Below are positions 11,801-26,001 of a stretch of 64,000 bases of DNA, one piece after another. Below the pieces are notes generated by a model. It did not search any database and was not told the origin of the DNA. It was given only the letters and a program-made list of their open reading frames with translations. The stretch comes from an uncultured Erysipelotrichaceae bacterium. GTDB lineage: Bacteria; Bacillota_I; Bacilli_A; RFN20; CAG-826. The translations under genes and the position numbers were made by a program. Numbering within the stretch: position 1 is the first letter of the stretch; every line of letters begins with the position of its first letter. The stretch covers positions 1-64,000 of the forward strand of contig CADBXE010000001.1 in NCBI GenBank assembly GCA_902798595.1. Direction: 5' to 3'.

Positions 11801-12940
11801 ATGCTAAAATGTTTGATGAGGAAAAAAAGTATGAATAGATCGATTAATGATTGCAGCGAAGAAGCAAAAAAGAATTGGGAATATCTCCTTAAGAATTTCA
11901 CGCCTGAAAAAATAGAACAAATGACAAATAAGGATAATTACGTTATCGGCAAGGGGCCTAGTAACTTATCGTTTTGCTATTTGGTTGAAGTTGGAACTAG
12001 AGAACTAGGTGATGTTAGAGGCGCGAATTCATCAAAATTTGGTCTTTGGTTCGGAACAAAAGGCAAAGACAAAGAACGAAAATATAGGGCAACTTCTAAG
12101 CATTTTAATGAGGATGTTGAAAGAGCGTTTTCTGAAATAAAAAGTGCCCTCTCCTCGTTAATTAGAAAAGCCCAATCACTAACTGAGTTTAGAGATATTA
12201 AGTCTACTATAATCAGTGATATGTTTAAGTATAAGATTATTTATTTGTACAATCCTGAAATAATGATTCCATCTTTCTTTTTGAAAGATCTAATGCATTT
12301 TGAAAAGTGTCTGAAACTGCGCTGTCATAATAAATTTGAAGATTGCCAAAAAAGCCTGATGGAATATAAAAAAGCCCATAACGCAAAAATGAGCAATCAT
12401 AAGTTCATGCTTATGCTCTATAACAAATACGGACGTTACAACACAGCTGTTGCTAATAAAATTAATGACGAGAATGATCTCGCTTTGAATAAGCGATTGC
12501 TGTGTTCAAAAGACCCACAAGAACAATATACAACAGTTGCTAAACCGAAAAAGCAATTGAAAAAGGGTGCTGACAATGTTTATTACTATCCTAGAGATTA
12601 TAAAATGGCCCTTCACGCCTTAAAGAACGCTAACCATCGATGCGAGAATGAATCAACTCATGAATGCTTTGAGAGAAGAAGCGATGGCAAGCCATATACA
12701 GAAGTTCATCATTTAGTACCTTTATGCTTTCATGATGATTTTGATGTGTCATTAGACGTACCAGAAAATATTGTTTCTCTATGCAGTAGCTGCCACAACG
12801 AGATACATTATGGTAAAAAAGCTGATGCTATGATTAAAAAACTTTATTATCAGAGAAAAGAGAAATTAACGGAGGCTGGTATTGAAATTACTCTTGAAGA
12901 ACTGCTTAACATGTACCACACTATTAATTCTCGTGGATAA
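11801..12940 (+). CDS. HNH endonuclease with uncharacterised N-terminal region
   Basis: A 379-aa protein. The C-terminal ~100 residues carry an HNH fold: a Cys pair (HRCENE...HECF), the metal-binding EVHHLVPL and the closing CSSCHNEIHYG. The N-terminal ~270 residues are unrecognised; FCYLVEVGTRELGDVRG near residue 50 may form part of a substrate-recognition domain. The layout resembles McrA-like restriction endonucleases that cut modified DNA. Translation could start at 11801 (AAGGTG upstream) or 11831 (GAGGAAA upstream). It lies at the edge of the defence-type gene cluster. Confidence 0.75.
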   Translation: MLKCLMRKKSMNRSINDCSEEAKKNWEYLLKNFTPEKIEQMTNKDNYVIGKGPSNLSFCYLVEVGTRELGDVRGANSSKFGLWFGTKGKDKERKYRATSKHFNEDVERAFSEIKSALSSLIRKAQSLTEFRDIKSTIISDMFKYKIIYLYNPEIMIPSFFLKDLMHFEKCLKLRCHNKFEDCQKSLMEYKKAHNAKMSNHKFMLMLYNKYGRYNTAVANKINDENDLALNKRLLCSKDPQEQYTTVAKPKKQLKKGADNVYYYPRDYKMALHALKNANHRCENESTHECFERRSDGKPYTEVHHLVPLCFHDDFDVSLDVPENIVSLCSSCHNEIHYGKKADAMIKKLYYQRKEKLTEAGIEITLEELLNMYHTINSRG

Positions 12941-13886: not shown

Positions 13887-13999
13887 ATCTACACAATATC
13901 ACGAAACACAATGGTAGACGTAGTGAAATACAGATAGTACAAGCGCTAAATATAGAAATAGTTTGATCTGAGATCTCTTAGCTGCTAAGCTGCTAATTG

Positions 14000-15373
14000 A
14001 TGAAGATTAATGAATTCATAAAAGGACACATCTATAACAGAGAAGATTTAAGAAGTGCTTTTGGTGGTTCCTTTTATCGTGGAATGAATAAATGTAACAA
14101 AACCAATACTTTAGTACTTATTTCAAAGCACACATCGAACCGCATCTATGGAGACCTTTTCCAAAATAACCAACTTATTTATACTGGCGAAGGCCAAAAA
14201 GGTGACCAAACATATACTGGGGCGAATAAAGATTTATTATATTCAGAAGAAAATAAACTACCCGTGTATCTGTTTGTGGTCTTTAAAAATCAACAATATA
14301 CATACTATGGTACCGTTCATCTCAATGGACAACCATATTTTGAAAATGAATTAGATGTTGATGGAAATGATAGAAAAGTTATCAGATTTCCATTAGTGCT
14401 ATCGACTGACTTCATACCACTAACTCCAGAACAAATGAAGAACCATCTTGTAGCAGGCATTGTTCCTGAAAGAAAAGCTCTACAAGTAGTGGGCGCCGCT
14501 ATCGTTAATGAAAATGGTGAAGTGTTATGCGCTCAAAGAGGATATGGTTCCTTAAAAGGTAAGTGGGAATTCCCTGGTGGCAAGATTGAAAAAGACGAAA
14601 GTGACGCCGAAGCTTTAGCTAGAGAAATAAAAGAAGAACTTGGCATCAAAGTTGATGTCAAAGAAATGATTGATGAAAACTATCACGAATATGATAGCTT
14701 TAGTGTCAACTTAAAAGTGTATAAATGCCAATATGTTGCTGGCGAAATAAACGATTCGGAACACCAATCTTTAAAATGGGTTGAGAGTAAAAAACTTAAT
14801 GATTTAGATTGGGCTGACGCTGATAAACCAATTGTCGACACTTATCTAGATTCTTTACCAAGAGCAATTGATGGCGAACCCCTTCAATTAAAATACTACG
14901 AAGCTAAGGCTGTTGAAACTTCTGACAGAGAACTCTTAAGAGCGGTCCAAGATTACGAAAGAGCCCAAAGAAATCAACGTAAGGCCGGAGAGTCTGCCGA
15001 ACAAGCAGTCATTAATTATGAAAAAGATAAGTTAAACAACTCTGGCCGTCCAGATTTAGCGGATATGGTTAAACAAGTTTCTAGGCAGTCTTCTGATTTT
15101 GGATACGATATTCTTTCCTTTGAAATCAATAATGGCGTAGCTCAAGAAGTACATATTGAAGTCAAATCCGCAAAGATGAGCAACTCGTATATCGAATTCT
15201 TTATTAGTGAGAACGAATTGAACAAATTCAGAAATGATGCCGCATATAAGGTGTATTGTCTTATTAGAATGGGTAGAAATTATAAATTACACGAAGTGAA
15301 TAAAACAGATTTCTTTGCTCATAACTACCTATCACCAATGTCATATAGGGTTCGTATTAGAATTGCAGAATAG
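14000..15373 (+). CDS. Fusion: SRA/ScoMcrA-like reader domain, Nudix hydrolase, DUF3883 nuclease domain
   Basis: A 457-aa three-part protein. Residues ~5-135 have the pattern HIYNREDLRSAFGG ... LIYTGEGQKGDQ, seen in SRA-like modified-DNA-binding domains of ScoMcrA-type restriction enzymes. Residues ~158-285 are a Nudix/MutT hydrolase with an intact box (G.....E.......REI.EELG) after FPGG, and most resemble 8-oxo-dGTP-type enzymes. Residues ~335-455 match DUF3883, a PD-(D/E)XK-type fold, with GYDILSFE and IEVKSA giving the D and ExK residues. The ATG at 14000 is preferred to the adjoining TTG. All catalytic residues look intact. The architecture suggests sensing modified nucleotides or DNA and cutting; the role in defence is inferred. 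Confidence 0.8.
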   Translation: MKINEFIKGHIYNREDLRSAFGGSFYRGMNKCNKTNTLVLISKHTSNRIYGDLFQNNQLIYTGEGQKGDQTYTGANKDLLYSEENKLPVYLFVVFKNQQYTYYGTVHLNGQPYFENELDVDGNDRKVIRFPLVLSTDFIPLTPEQMKNHLVAGIVPERKALQVVGAAIVNENGEVLCAQRGYGSLKGKWEFPGGKIEKDESDAEALAREIKEELGIKVDVKEMIDENYHEYDSFSVNLKVYKCQYVAGEINDSEHQSLKWVESKKLNDLDWADADKPIVDTYLDSLPRAIDGEPLQLKYYEAKAVETSDRELLRAVQDYERAQRNQRKAGESAEQAVINYEKDKLNNSGRPDLADMVKQVSRQSSDFGYDILSFEINNGVAQEVHIEVKSAKMSNSYIEFFISENELNKFRNDAAYKVYCLIRMGRNYKLHEVNKTDFFAHNYLSPMSYRVRIRIAE

Positions 15374-15418: not shown

Positions 15419-16126
15419 ATGGAAACATTATGGGTATGTTTGTGGGTTTTTGTGTTTGTTCCGCTCATCATTTCTATTCTATCTTTTCTTGTTGTTCTAA
15501 TTAGATCACCATTTAAATTTCCATATCGTGAGATAACGTTTGATGTTTCTGGTACCAAAAAGCCGAAAATCGAAGACTATATCGATAGGCTTCTGATAAA
15601 CAATAAGATGAATGCAATCGATCGTCATAAATCAGAAATGCTTGCATGGGAAAAAGGCTGTTTAGAAGATATCAAAAAAAGTGTGTACAAAAAAAGAAGA
15701 AATGATCAGTTTATTGCGTCTTTAGATTGGGAGCATGCTTTTATTTTCATATTCACACGCAACAAGACTAGATATAAACAAGTTAACTATGTTAGATATC
15801 CTTATACCGTCGTAGAAGAAATAGGACGTTTTTCTTGCTCTTACAAGTATTTGAAAGATAGATTTAATAAGTTGAATGAGATTGGATTTGAAGCGGTTTT
15901 GTCAGAATATCATTCAAAGAGTCAAAGAAGCTTGATGACAAAAGAATTAAGAGAGCAAATTGCTTTCAGGGACAATTTTACTTGCCAAATATGTGGAAAA
16001 TACATGCCTGACGGTGTTGGCTTACATATCGATCACATTATTCCCGTTTCCAAAGGTGGGAAAAGTGTTCCATCCAATTTGCGAGTCCTTTGCTCAAAAT
16101 GCAATGGCAGAAAATCTGACCACTAA
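15419..16126 (+). CDS. Membrane-anchored HNH endonuclease, paralogue 1
   Basis: A 235-aa protein with one strong N-terminal membrane segment (residues ~4-28), a ~140-residue middle region, and a C-terminal HNH domain: CQICG, then HIDHIIPVSKGGK, SNLRVLC and CSKCN. The nuclease domain would lie in the cytoplasm. It shares the layout of 18364-19197 and 25177-26001 but is more diverged in the middle. A -10 TATAAT at 15385-15390 gives it its own promoter between the reader/Nudix/nuclease gene and the MazG gene. Defence-related activity at the membrane is plausible but unproven. Confidence 0.8.
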   Translation: METLWVCLWVFVFVPLIISILSFLVVLIRSPFKFPYREITFDVSGTKKPKIEDYIDRLLINNKMNAIDRHKSEMLAWEKGCLEDIKKSVYKKRRNDQFIASLDWEHAFIFIFTRNKTRYKQVNYVRYPYTVVEEIGRFSCSYKYLKDRFNKLNEIGFEAVLSEYHSKSQRSLMTKELREQIAFRDNFTCQICGKYMPDGVGLHIDHIIPVSKGGKSVPSNLRVLCSKCNGRKSDH

Positions 16127-16185: not shown

Positions 16186-16506
16186 ATGAAAAAAGAAACT
16201 ATTAAGCGTATTCGCGATTTTACTATAGATAGAGACTGGGATCAGTTTCACAGTCCTGCTAATTTAGCCAAGTCCATTAGCATTGAAGCTAACGAACTTT
16301 TAGAGTGCTTCCAATGGGATGAAAAGAACTACGATCTTTGCGCAGTTAAAGAAGAACTTGCTGATGTCATAGTGTATTGTCAAAACATGTTAGATAAACT
16401 TGGCTTAGATGTTGATGACATAGTCAATGAAAAGATGGATATGAACGAAGCGAAATATCCAATTGAAAAAGCTAAAGGCAAAGCAGATAAGTATAACAAA
16501 CTATGA
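16186..16506 (+). CDS. MazG-like nucleotide pyrophosphohydrolase
   Basis: A 106-aa all-alpha NTP pyrophosphohydrolase of the MazG/RS21-C6 type. Residues ~30-40 (SIEANELLE) and ~61-66 (EELADV) supply the metal-binding ExxE...ExxD set. Known relatives hydrolyse dCTP, modified dNTPs or ppGpp-type nucleotides to monophosphates. The stop overlaps the next start as ATGA, so it is translationally coupled to the nuclease-helicase, indicating a shared function. A possible TATACT -10 lies about 20 nt upstream. Confidence 0.85.
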   Translation: MKKETIKRIRDFTIDRDWDQFHSPANLAKSISIEANELLECFQWDEKNYDLCAVKEELADVIVYCQNMLDKLGLDVDDIVNEKMDMNEAKYPIEKAKGKADKYNKL

Positions 16507-18362
16507 TTATTTATAACGACACACTTTCATGCTTTAAAAACGATGTTCTTATGAACGCGTTACCCAATATCCTTTCAAATAAACTTCGCGAAAAAGGTAT
16601 TAGTGGTGGCTCAGTAAGCGAAGTTAGATCGTGGAACAATTCACTTCGCTTTATGAAAGACGTCCTTGACGATCCATATTTTTCTCCTAATTGCCAGGTT
16701 GCCATTGAATATAACATTCCGCAGACATCTAAAAGAGTGGATTTTATGATTATGGGTAACAATGGTGAAGAAGATCATGTAGTTGTTGTTGAACTAAAAC
16801 AATGGGGCAAAGTTGAACTCGTGGACAAAACATGCGATCACTCAGTGATGTCTGATTTGCAAAAGCACGAACCTGTTGCCCATCCTTCTTATCAAGCATT
16901 TTCTTATAAATGTTTAATATTGAATTATTGTGATGACAAAAATGTTAATGAAAAAACAATTAAACCATGCGCTTATCTTCACAATTTAGAAGAGAAATAT
17001 CGTTCTATTATTGAAGATAATATTTACAGTGAGTGGACAGCTGAAGCACCTTTGTTTTTACAAAGGGATGTTTTAAAGTTTAGAGAATACATAAAGAAGT
17101 ACATTAGATTGAAAGCAAATGATGGTTCTTTACTCTATAAGATTGAAGAAGGCAGACTAAGACCAACTAAATCTTTACAGGATGCTTTGGATTCGATGCT
17201 TTGCGGAAATAAAGAATTCCACATGATTGATGAACAAGTAGTGGCTTATGACAAAATTATGAAAGCTATTCGCGAATCTAGAGAAGATAACGAAAAGCAT
17301 GTGATCATCATTACCGGCGGTCCTGGTACAGGAAAATCAGTTTTAGCCATTAACGTATTAGCTAGATGCATTATAGATATGAAACTTAATGCATCATATA
17401 TTACTAAAAATATGGCACCTAGAAAGTGCTATGCGAATCTCTTAGCAAAAGGAAATGCTAAGAAGATGATTAATCTTCAAAAGGCAATTCAATCACCTTG
17501 GTGTCTACCAAATACTCCATATAATGGCTTGGATGTAGGCATTTTTGATGAAGCTCACAGAATGCAAAAGAAACCATATAGATATTTTGGCAACGATATG
17601 CTGGAAGACGCAATTAAGGCATCAAGGGTATCGGTTTTCTTCGTTGATGAAGACCAAAGAATAACAATTGATGAGAAGTACAGTGTTGATTCAATAATTG
17701 AGTATGCTGAAAGAGAAAATGCAATTGTCCATAGACCATTCGAGTTGTCTTCACAATTTAGATGCGATGGTAGTGATGGCTATATATCTTTTTTGAACAA
17801 TCTACTTGAGTTGAAGCAAACCGCCAATACAAGATTTGAATTTAATAAATTGAAAGTGGTCCCTTACGATAATCCTGTGAAGATGAGAGATGATTTAAGA
17901 GAACTAAACAAAAAGAACAATAAAACAAGAATGATTGCTGGTTATTGTTATGATTGGAATGTTAAAAAGCATAGAGGTGAATGGGATATCGTCATTGGCG
18001 ACGACTTCAAAGCAAAATGGAATTTGGAAAATGATGACCATTGGGCTGTGAATCCTAATTCTTTTGAAGAGATTGGCTGTATCCATACATGTCAAGGAAT
18101 GGAATTCGATTATGTTGGTGTCTTTATTGGAAAAGACCTCTATTACGACGGCCAACATGTAAGGACTAACAGAAATGCCATTTCTAGAGATGATAGTTCT
18201 AGTGGCATTAGGCTAAAAACAACTTCAGACGATGAAGCTGATAAACTTATTAGAAGGACATACAAAGTTCTTCTGACTAGAGGCTTAAAAGGCTGTTTCA
18301 TTTATTGTGAAGACGCCCCTCTTAGAGACTATTTAAAAAAGATTCTAGAAAGAAGAAACTAG
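16503..18362 (+). CDS. PD-(D/E)XK nuclease fused to DUF2075/SF1-type ATPase-helicase
   Basis: A 619-aa protein. Residues ~65-110 contain a nuclease core (RVDFMIM ... VVVVELKQW) with the D and ExK triad. Residues ~265-615 are a DUF2075/Schlafen-group-3-like helicase: Walker A GGPGTGKS, DEAH in VGIFDEAHRMQ, motif III FFVDEDQR, then CQGMEFDYVGVFIG and a C-terminal LLTRGLKGCFIY typical of SF1 motifs V/VI. It starts within the MazG stop codon and is followed 2 nt later by a membrane HNH nuclease gene. This trio is typical of defence-island content; its exact target is unknown. Confidence 0.85.
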   Translation: MIIYNDTLSCFKNDVLMNALPNILSNKLREKGISGGSVSEVRSWNNSLRFMKDVLDDPYFSPNCQVAIEYNIPQTSKRVDFMIMGNNGEEDHVVVVELKQWGKVELVDKTCDHSVMSDLQKHEPVAHPSYQAFSYKCLILNYCDDKNVNEKTIKPCAYLHNLEEKYRSIIEDNIYSEWTAEAPLFLQRDVLKFREYIKKYIRLKANDGSLLYKIEEGRLRPTKSLQDALDSMLCGNKEFHMIDEQVVAYDKIMKAIRESREDNEKHVIIITGGPGTGKSVLAINVLARCIIDMKLNASYITKNMAPRKCYANLLAKGNAKKMINLQKAIQSPWCLPNTPYNGLDVGIFDEAHRMQKKPYRYFGNDMLEDAIKASRVSVFFVDEDQRITIDEKYSVDSIIEYAERENAIVHRPFELSSQFRCDGSDGYISFLNNLLELKQTANTRFEFNKLKVVPYDNPVKMRDDLRELNKKNNKTRMIAGYCYDWNVKKHRGEWDIVIGDDFKAKWNLENDDHWAVNPNSFEEIGCIHTCQGMEFDYVGVFIGKDLYYDGQHVRTNRNAISRDDSSSGIRLKTTSDDEADKLIRRTYKVLLTRGLKGCFIYCEDAPLRDYLKKILERRN

Positions 18363-18363
18363 T

Positions 18364-19197
18364 ATGAAAACTGAACAAATCATCGCTCTCACTATTTTTG
18401 TGTTTATCGTAATAGCGGTTATAGCGCTCGTTGTTTTCGTTTCAATTAGAAATAACATATATAAAAAATTTGTTCTCGCAAATAGTGTTTCAATTAGAAA
18501 AATAAAAGAAATCAATATTAGGTATACATTCAAAACGTATGACCAAGCAGTTAGATTCCATCATAGATTTGATAATAAAGGATACTGGCGTAAGACCGAA
18601 CCAGTCGCGTTTTTAAGTAGAGAAATCAGAAATGATCTATCATATTGGTTTGATGTAAGAGATAAAATCGAGTTCAACAAAACTAGTGGTAATAAGTATT
18701 TTAAAGAGATCAAGGAAGCATATGTTCCTATCTCAAAAGATATTTGTGAGACCAATAAAAAACGCTTTAAAAAATGCTGTAAATTTGAAAAGAGATTGTT
18801 TGATTCACTTATAAAACATCCACAAACTACTATTAAAATTAATGTGGTTTTGAGATATGTTTCTGCCAAAGGAAAAGTCGATCTTTCAAAAGCGGAAAGC
18901 TTTGACTACGTTGCTTTGAATAGAATTTTGGATTCCATTTCAACGTCTAGAGTTGATAGGGAAACTTATGAAAGATTAGCTACAGCTGAACGCGCAATGC
19001 TTTCTGATAGTATGAGGTATGACGTTCTTAGAAGAGATGGGTTTAGATGTGTTTTGTGTGGGATGTCTGCAAAAGATGGTGCGGTACTTCATGTTGACCA
19101 CATCATACCTGTTTCAAAGGGTGGAAAAACAGAGCTTAGTAATTTAAGAACGTTGTGTGAGAAGTGCAACATTGGAAAGAGTAATAAAATCGAATAA
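18364..19197 (+). CDS. Membrane-anchored HNH endonuclease, paralogue 2
   Basis: A 277-aa protein with an N-terminal membrane segment (residues ~5-28), a helical basic middle region and a C-terminal HNH domain (CVLCG, HVDHIIPVSKGGK, NLRTLCEKCN). It starts 2 nt after the helicase stop, so it belongs to the MazG/nuclease-helicase operon. The stretch just after the membrane anchor (IYKKFVLANSVSIRKIKEIN) closely parallels that of 25177-26001, showing these two are true paralogues. Confidence 0.82.
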   Translation: MKTEQIIALTIFVFIVIAVIALVVFVSIRNNIYKKFVLANSVSIRKIKEINIRYTFKTYDQAVRFHHRFDNKGYWRKTEPVAFLSREIRNDLSYWFDVRDKIEFNKTSGNKYFKEIKEAYVPISKDICETNKKRFKKCCKFEKRLFDSLIKHPQTTIKINVVLRYVSAKGKVDLSKAESFDYVALNRILDSISTSRVDRETYERLATAERAMLSDSMRYDVLRRDGFRCVLCGMSAKDGAVLHVDHIIPVSKGGKTELSNLRTLCEKCNIGKSNKIE

Positions 19198-24592: not shown

Positions 24593-24626
24593 ACTTATAT
24601 ACCAATTATACCCCTATAAATAGATG

Positions 24627-24632
24627 TATACT
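24627..24632 (+). promoter_or_regulatory. -10 box for a leaderless macrodomain transcript
   Basis: TATACT ends 9 nt before the ATG at 24642, and there is no Shine-Dalgarno sequence. This position decides the start: an in-frame ATG at 24624 lies upstream of the -10 and cannot be used from this promoter. Confidence 0.55.
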
Positions 24633-24641
24633 AATAATGAC

Positions 24642-25169
24642 ATGAAAATAGAAATCATATACATAGATATCACTAAGATAGGTAATAAAGCTGATGCGAT
24701 TGTTAACGCCGCGAATGAAACATTATTAGGCGGTGGTGGTGTTGATGGCGCCATCCATAGAGCGGCAGGCCCTAAACTATTAGAAGAATGTAGAACCTTA
24801 GGGGGCTGTAAACCAGGAGAGGCTAAAGCCACAAAAGCCTATAACTTAAATAACAAATATATTATCCATACAGTGGGTCCTAGATATTGGTCAGATCCAA
24901 ATCCAGAAGAGACGTTATATAACTGTTATATCAATTCTTTAAAACTAGGGGATTCTTTAGGATTAGAATCTATTGCTTTCCCTTCTATATCTACAGGAGC
25001 ATTTGGCTATCCTATAGAAGAAGCTGCGGAGGTATGCGTTAAAGCATTGTTCACTTATAAACCAACTCACATTAAGAGAGTGTATATGTGCATATATCCA
25101 AATAGAGATAATTTGGAAATATATGATAGAACGTTCAAGAATTATCAATATAAAATTATTAATAAGTGA
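24642..25169 (+). CDS. Macrodomain protein (ADP-ribose/O-acetyl-ADP-ribose hydrolase type)
   Basis: A 175-aa stand-alone macrodomain. Signatures are [26 protein letters not shown] (catalytic Asn and the glycine loop), [18 protein letters not shown] and [12 protein letters not shown]. The family removes ADP-ribose from proteins or nucleic acids or deacetylates O-acetyl-ADP-ribose. The gene is followed by a membrane HNH nuclease gene after 7 nt. The pairing suggests that it protects against, or works with, ADP-ribosylation in the same defence context; this is inference. Confidence 0.9.
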
Positions 25170-25176
25170 GGCTTAG

Positions 25177-26001
25177 ATGGACCCAAAAGTTGCGTTAATC
25201 CTTTTCTTATTTGTGCCTTTGGCAATTTTTCTTGCAATCTTTATTCCTGTATCGATTGTCAGAAAAATATACTCTGATTTTGTTTTGAAGCATAGCGTAG
25301 CAATTAAGACTCTAAAAGAAATAAACAAGCACTACAAATTTGCGGATGTGAAATCCCAAACGATTATGCACCGCTATGACAATAGAAACTATTACGAAAC
25401 CATTTCCACCAAGGATTACTTAACTTATCAGCTTGTTTTCATACAAAAAAGTGTTTTTGAAAAGTTAAACGATGCTGAAAGCAATAAAAGGAAGTTTGAA
25501 AAATATAAAGAGGAGATAAATGAGAAATGCAAGCTCAATTCTTTTGATACAGAGAGCCTTCCAAAAAATTTAAACAGACTAAAGAGATTTGAAAAGAAAC
25601 TCTTTATTAAGACCACACAAAACCCAACTATAGAATTCTTTATTCACGTTCGTTTGATATTAACTAAAATTAATGACCAATATATCGCTTCTAAGGAGAA
25701 GATATATGATGCTAAAACTATCAGAAGTTTAATTGGTAGAGTTAACAATAAGATTGGTAACCGTTATCAGGATAGAGAGATATGGGATGCTATTAGCCGC
25801 GTAGAAAGAGAAAGAGTCAGCAACAAACTAAGATTTAGAGTGTACAACAGAGACCATAATCGCTGCGTTAAATGTGGTAGTAGAAGAAACTTAGAAATTG
25901 ACCATATTATCCCTATTTCCAAGGGTGGTAAAACCGTATACAGCAACCTTCAAACTCTTTGTCATAGGTGCAATGCAATCAAGGGATCTACCATCGAATA
26001 A
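25177..26001 (+). CDS. Membrane-anchored HNH endonuclease, paralogue 3
   Basis: A 274-aa protein with an N-terminal membrane segment (about residues 4-28), a conserved post-membrane region (IYSDFVLKHSVAIKTLKEIN, matching paralogue 2) and a C-terminal HNH domain (CVKCG, EIDHIIPISKGGK, CHRCN). GTGAGG precedes the ATG, and it is second in an operon with the macrodomain gene. Confidence 0.82.
   Translation: MDPKVALILFLFVPLAIFLAIFIPVSIVRKIYSDFVLKHSVAIKTLKEINKHYKFADVKSQTIMHRYDNRNYYETISTKDYLTYQLVFIQKSVFEKLNDAESNKRKFEKYKEEINEKCKLNSFDTESLPKNLNRLKRFEKKLFIKTTQNPTIEFFIHVRLILTKINDQYIASKEKIYDAKTIRSLIGRVNNKIGNRYQDREIWDAISRVERERVSNKLRFRVYNRDHNRCVKCGSRRNLEIDHIIPISKGGKTVYSNLQTLCHRCNAIKGSTIE

Follow-up and report, generated by a model that had tools for sequence, protein, structure and literature searches.

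Modification-dependent restriction enzymes have no accompanying methylase to mark the DNA of the host. To our knowledge, it is rarely asked how the host then escapes damage to itself when modified bases are salvaged. Each single domain considered here is already known, as are SRA readers joined to nucleases; a coupling of such readers to Nudix hydrolases was not found in the literature searched. The characterised relatives TagI and SauUSI read 5mC/5hmC (PMC6212794, PMC7913695), and TagI rejects glucosylated 5hmC while accepting 5mC and 5hmC (PMC6212794). In SauUSI, the proposed target recogniser is the DUF3427 domain, whose structure is an SRA fold (PMC3874153, PMC7913695). Among nucleotide hydrolases, 5-methyl-dCTP is a substrate of NudG and MutT2 (NudG: PMC5158307), the kcat/Km of NudG being 1.3e6 per M per s for 5-methyl-dCTP versus 4.7e4 for CTP (PMC5158307), and human DCTPP1 prefers dCTP and 5-methyl-dCTP (PMC4491611).

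The window, meaning the whole stretch of 64,000 nucleotides that was analysed, comes from a gut bacterium and encodes a protein that combines an SRA, a Nudix and a NOV_C domain. With a probability of roughly 0.6, we read this protein as a modification-dependent restriction nuclease with a built-in modified-dCTP hydrolase, the most likely purpose of which is self-protection.

Architecture and conservation of the SRA-Nudix-NOV_C protein

The open reading frame spans 13997-15373 on the + strand, and the ATG at 14000, from which residues are numbered here, gives 457 aa. Its features are as follows.

14000..15373, + strand: three-domain protein SRA-Nudix-NOV_C, 457 aa (ORF, Pfam, orthologue profiles, Foldseek; eight related loci)
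14000..14416, + strand: predicted SRA domain, putative modified-cytosine reader, residues 1-139 (SAD_SRA/DUF3427 in orthologues; AlphaFold and Foldseek)
14147..14182, + strand: predicted flipped-base pocket Tyr50, Asp52, Tyr61 (Y-x-D-x8-Y-T-G; invariant in 7/7 N-termini; TagI spacing)
14486..14839, + strand: Nudix hydrolase domain, NudG/MutT2 class, matching PADLOC candidate PDC-S07 (Pfam; PADLOC E 2e-48; Foldseek)
14576..14647, + strand: Nudix box, intact (sequence)
14951..15370, + strand: putative NOV_C/DUF3883 PD-(D/E)XK nuclease domain, residues 318-457, common to PD-T4-1 (Pfam PF13020; PADLOC PD-T4-1, PDC-S36)
15107..15166, + strand: putative nuclease catalytic residues D370, E387, K389 (invariant in 12/12 aligned NOV_C domains)

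The first-pass annotation had placed three domains in one protein, and this is confirmed as a real arrangement, by Pfam for the Nudix (NUDIX, E 4e-18) and NOV_C/DUF3883 (E 2e-12) domains and by AlphaFold and Foldseek for the SRA domain. The layout is SRA at residues 1-139, a NudG/MutT2-class Nudix at ~160-283 and a NOV_C/DUF3883 PD-(D/E)XK domain at ~318-457. Pfam found neither a PLD nuclease nor an SF2 ATPase in the 457-aa protein, which places it outside the SauUSI family, and no HNH domain, which places it outside the ScoMcrA/SRA-HNH family.

The window N-terminus by itself was below threshold in Pfam and gave nothing useful in a single-sequence PDB search, so that sets of orthologues and a structure were required. 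SAD_SRA was matched by all seven orthologous N-termini (best 1.8e-7) and DUF3427, the SauUSI reader domain, by four of the seven (best 4.9e-8), and a PDB search with a profile of these N-termini returned the SUVH5 SRA and ScoMcrA at weak E values of 0.03-0.3. The N-terminus was then modelled with AlphaFold (pLDDT 82) and the model compared with the PDB by Foldseek, and every one of the top 28 matches (E <= 1.3e-3) was an SRA structure, with ScoMcrA first; the structures matched were ScoMcrA, SUVH5, SUVH6, KRYPTONITE, MspJI, SUVH9, UHRF1 and SauUSI. Tyr50, Asp52, Tyr61 and Thr62 are invariant in the seven orthologous N-termini, and the spacing from Asp52 to Tyr61 (Asp+9=Tyr) equals that of D58/Y67 in TagI (PMC6212794). 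By the model and its Foldseek matches, the N-terminus is, at the level of predicted structure, an SRA domain with the reader fold. Its predicted 5mC-flipping pocket of Asp and aromatic residues is intact, and the initial label of SRA/ScoMcrA-like holds. One orthologue (L039) has Asn in place of Asp in the conserved GEGQKGDQ motif. In another genome (L120), a close N-terminal homologue is joined to HNH, which is the classical SRA-HNH layout. Relatives of the reader were not found in the viral-contig scan, and a candidate reader-Nudix match in Cognataquiflexum (L046) was rejected as a Nudix gene alone.

The Nudix domain dominated the matches of a Foldseek search with the whole protein. Its Nudix box is complete, as had been noticed from the sequence, with the full GX5EX7REUXEEXGU within residues 193-216. 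Among its best structural matches are MutT2 with 5mdCTP, CMP, dCMP or CDP, the 5mdCTP complex at E 8.9e-13, and E. coli Orf135/NudG. In MutT, Asn119 contacts the base; in an alignment with E. coli K-12 NudG and MutT, the window Nudix and NudG both have Asp at this position versus Asn119 in MutT. The Nudix box and this NudG-like Asp put the domain in the NudG/MutT2 class, and by analogy with these relatives its substrate would be 5-methyl-dCTP.

The C-terminal domain is probably a nuclease, judged from its profiles and its conserved catalytic residues. PADLOC matched it to PD-T4-1 (E 2e-20) and PDC-S36 (E 4e-22), and the DUF3883 core with D and ExK that the first reading described is borne out by PF13020 and by D370, E387 and K389 (D371/E388/K390 in 458-aa numbering), which are invariant across all fusion orthologues and PD-T4-1-like relatives. 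The N-terminal domain of PD-T4-1 is absent from the protein, which matches PADLOC profile positions 235-379 of 383 alone.

A search for the same domain order in other genomes, proposed at the outset, found it in eight related loci with the window counted, all in Bacilli, and several of the named orthologues come from yak and goat omasum assemblies. Plasmid and phage scans gave no full-length relative and matched parts alone. In one copy an in-frame stop separates the reader from the Nudix (L041:8388-8390), and another is cut by a contig end (L044). The interrupted copy comes from one of the two carrier genomes in which a C5-methyltransferase gene is present. Values of dN/dS were ~0.01-0.18 in every domain (0.01-0.06 among the closest orthologues, 0.07-0.18 against L042), and all three domains are under purifying selection. 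A chance arrangement is excluded by the recurrence of the order at eight loci and by these low dN/dS values, each well below 1.

Nudix genes beside SRA-type enzymes, and the local neighbourhood

A NudG-class Nudix adjoins 17 of 30 SauUSI-type (DUF3427) loci in the flank examined, and in one of these 17 (L153) it is fused into a helicase-DUF3427-Nudix protein. The 30 loci were taken from the same class as the window genome, and the flank covered mostly one side of the gene in the DUF3427 and HsdR sets. The same scan found a NudG-class Nudix neighbour in 0/30 HsdR controls; among SLFN-helicase controls the count was 1/30, that one being the window fusion family. The other 13 of the 30 SauUSI-type loci had no Nudix in the flank examined, so the neighbour is frequent and these counts do not support an obligatory one. 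The pairing extends to S. aureus SauUSI itself (PDB 7clg, full length), where the NudG-class Nudix of PDB 5x1x ends 1 bp upstream of the gene (L190:5989-9253); this record bears the unverified label of a Staphylococcus phage and is evidently chromosomal S. aureus DNA. The mechanism paper on SauUSI makes no mention of 'nudix'.

SRA-HNH enzymes show a similar linkage. A Nudix gene overlaps the SRA-HNH gene by 4 bp in Priestia megaterium plasmids; HTH-SRA, SRA-HNH and Nudix genes are consecutive in one genome (G695), and an HTH-SRA gene adjoins a Nudix gene in another (G664). HTH-SRA proteins (L196:1030-2754, L198:1504-2172) are encoded upstream of SRA-HNH genes, Nudix genes or both, and resemble regulators, perhaps ones that sense modified DNA. 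Thus, the link between Nudix and SRA spans at least three nuclease types, in fused and separate forms, with the order of Nudix relative to reader and nuclease varying among loci and the Nudix a separate gene in most genomes. The first-pass annotation knew of no such combination, and while three parts in one chain are real, they are not unique, since a fusion of a SauUSI-type enzyme with Nudix and several two-gene versions exist. We found no published Nudix-SRA or Nudix-SauUSI link in the literature searched, which consisted mostly of papers free of subscription, and no paper within the same scope that brings ScoMcrA, the SRA domain and Nudix together.

In the window, two further genes lie downstream of the fusion.

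16186..16506, + strand: MazG-like protein resembling DCTPP1, a dCTP/5-methyl-dCTP pyrophosphatase (PDB 6sqw/2a3q, E 2.8e-16)
16503..18362, + strand: Schlafen group 3 helicase, paired with the MazG-like gene (Pfam, E 1.8e-86)

Four genomes have this pair together with the fusion. Across the helicase family, MazG and Schlafen helicase (16186-18362 here) form a conserved two-gene pair at 20 of 30 loci; an obligatory operon of fusion, MazG-like gene and helicase was rejected, the fusion being present at 1/30.

Several other genes of the neighbourhood deserve a record. At 11801-12940, an ORF encodes an HNH nuclease fused to the N-terminal domain of PD-T4-1; the window protein with its PD-T4-1-type C-terminal domain is close by. 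Three related HNH proteins have a hydrophobic N-terminal stretch (15419-16126, 18364-19197 and 25177-26001) and are possibly membrane-anchored nucleases; two of them flank the MazG-helicase pair. A macro-domain-like gene, recognised by eye from sequence, lies near the cluster in two genomes (24624-25169; L022:9158-9679), and a DUF2971 protein at 20332-21279 matches PADLOC candidate PDC-S31 (E 8e-36).

The window ORFs examined near the fusion include no methyltransferase, and no C5-methylase was seen in the source genome assembly (1.37 Mb, 25 contigs, 77% complete). A C5-methyltransferase gene is present in one of seven intact carriers (G002) versus 37 of 89 relatives (p = 0.15, not significant). 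An avoidance of C5-methylases by carriers is suggestive at most, with the expected direction and no significance.

Proposed role of the Nudix domain

In accordance with our reading of a nuclease that carries its own modified-dCTP hydrolase, the SRA domain would recognise foreign or phage DNA by flipping out a C5-modified cytosine (5mC or 5hmC), and the NOV_C PD-(D/E)XK domain would then cut near the recognised base. The Nudix domain would hydrolyse the matching free nucleotide, 5-methyl-dCTP and perhaps 5-hydroxymethyl-dCTP, to the monophosphate. Because such nucleases have no partner methylase protecting the host, modified cytosine that enters host DNA via salvage would be their weak point, and clearing of modified dCTP by the Nudix may remove the risk of self-damage. 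Depriving a phage of its modified base could be a second benefit. We favour self-protection because nucleases of this kind have no protective methylase and because the Nudix goes with the reader across the different nuclease types. The original model, that the protein detects modified bases, hydrolyses the matching dNTPs and cuts the DNA, gains support from the recurrent linkage of NudG-class Nudix with SRA and from the 5-methyl-dCTP activity of NudG, MutT2 and DCTPP1; however, the purpose of the Nudix need not be attack, and protection of host DNA by clearing modified dCTP fits the data at least as well as starvation of the phage.

Phage starvation is the strongest of the alternatives, though we consider it unlikely. 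Here the Nudix and the DCTPP1-like neighbour would destroy the modified dCTP of the phage, leaving it either with plain cytosine, open to ordinary restriction, or with the mark, open to the SRA nuclease. One cluster does hold two different pyrophosphohydrolases, both of classes that act on dCTP derivatives, and ordinary restriction genes nearby lend this account some plausibility, orthologues of the fusion adjoining type I (L040) and AlwI-type (L039) genes. It is weakened because a phage whose modified dCTP is destroyed would lose the mark and so escape the SRA reader that sits in the same protein. Moreover, chromosomal SauUSI-Nudix pairs, as in S. aureus, do not seem obviously matched to hypermodified phages.

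We regard as improbable that the Nudix is an allosteric sensor, in which binding of a modified nucleotide, or of the product made from it, would be the signal that switches the nuclease on or off, with catalysis secondary. The position of the Nudix between reader and nuclease in the fusion would suit such a switch, but the variable gene order and the predominance of separate Nudix genes described above would not, and the metal-binding glutamates of the Nudix are kept throughout the alignment. A housekeeping role in cleaning oxidised nucleotides (8-oxo-dGTP or similar), with the restriction linkage reflecting defence-island crowding or post-cut repair, is equally improbable: although the MutT profile also fits the domain (E 8e-25) and similar stand-alone Nudix genes occur in Bacteroidota outside any restriction-type context, other defence genes lack the linkage (none of the HsdR loci), Nudix fusions arose with two different enzyme types, and NudG/MutT2 are among the best structural matches.

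The recurrent tie of a nucleotide-pool enzyme to the reader, in operon or fusion, suggests a concrete answer to the self-damage problem, and the pairing occurs in a well-studied laboratory system, SauUSI. More tentatively, and with somewhat less than even confidence, we suggest that enzymes cutting cytosine-modified DNA, S. aureus SauUSI included, commonly have a Nudix partner that acts as a 'metabolic antidote', preventing modified dCTP from entering host DNA, and replaces the protective methylase of ordinary restriction-modification; the window protein would then be reader, nuclease and antidote in one chain. If this is true, a function would follow for NudG-like Nudix genes that are annotated only as MutT, which form a large class. 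The pairing of reader and Nudix beside restriction enzymes as well studied as SauUSI seems to have gone unremarked.

Comparison with known systems

SauUSI-type enzymes (PLD + SF2 ATPase + DUF3427/SRA) resemble the window protein in the fold and profile family of their SRA reader and are linked, once by fusion, to the same Nudix class, but they use a PLD nuclease and a helicase motor, both of which the window protein lacks. The SRA-HNH enzymes (TagI, ScoA3IV, Tbis1) and ScoMcrA have the same SRA type and, like the window protein, no motor; ScoMcrA is the closest fold match of the window SRA, and the SRA-HNH gene of Priestia has an overlapping Nudix gene. Their nuclease is HNH, whereas the window protein has NOV_C and an internal Nudix and is without the sulfur-binding domain. 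The MspJI family, itself among the fold matches, resembles the window protein in that a single chain carries an SRA and, after it, a PD-(D/E)XK-type nuclease; the MspJI nuclease is of the Mrr type and MspJI has no Nudix, in contrast to NOV_C plus Nudix here.

The other two relatives each resemble one part of the protein. PD-T4-1, as defined in PADLOC, has the NOV_C/DUF3883 domain in common with it, whereas the PD-T4-1 N-terminal domain is found in the neighbouring ORF, fused to HNH. NudG/Orf135 and mycobacterial MutT2 are of the same Nudix class, and NudG shares the Asp at the base-contact position; these are stand-alone enzymes, whereas the window Nudix is an internal domain.
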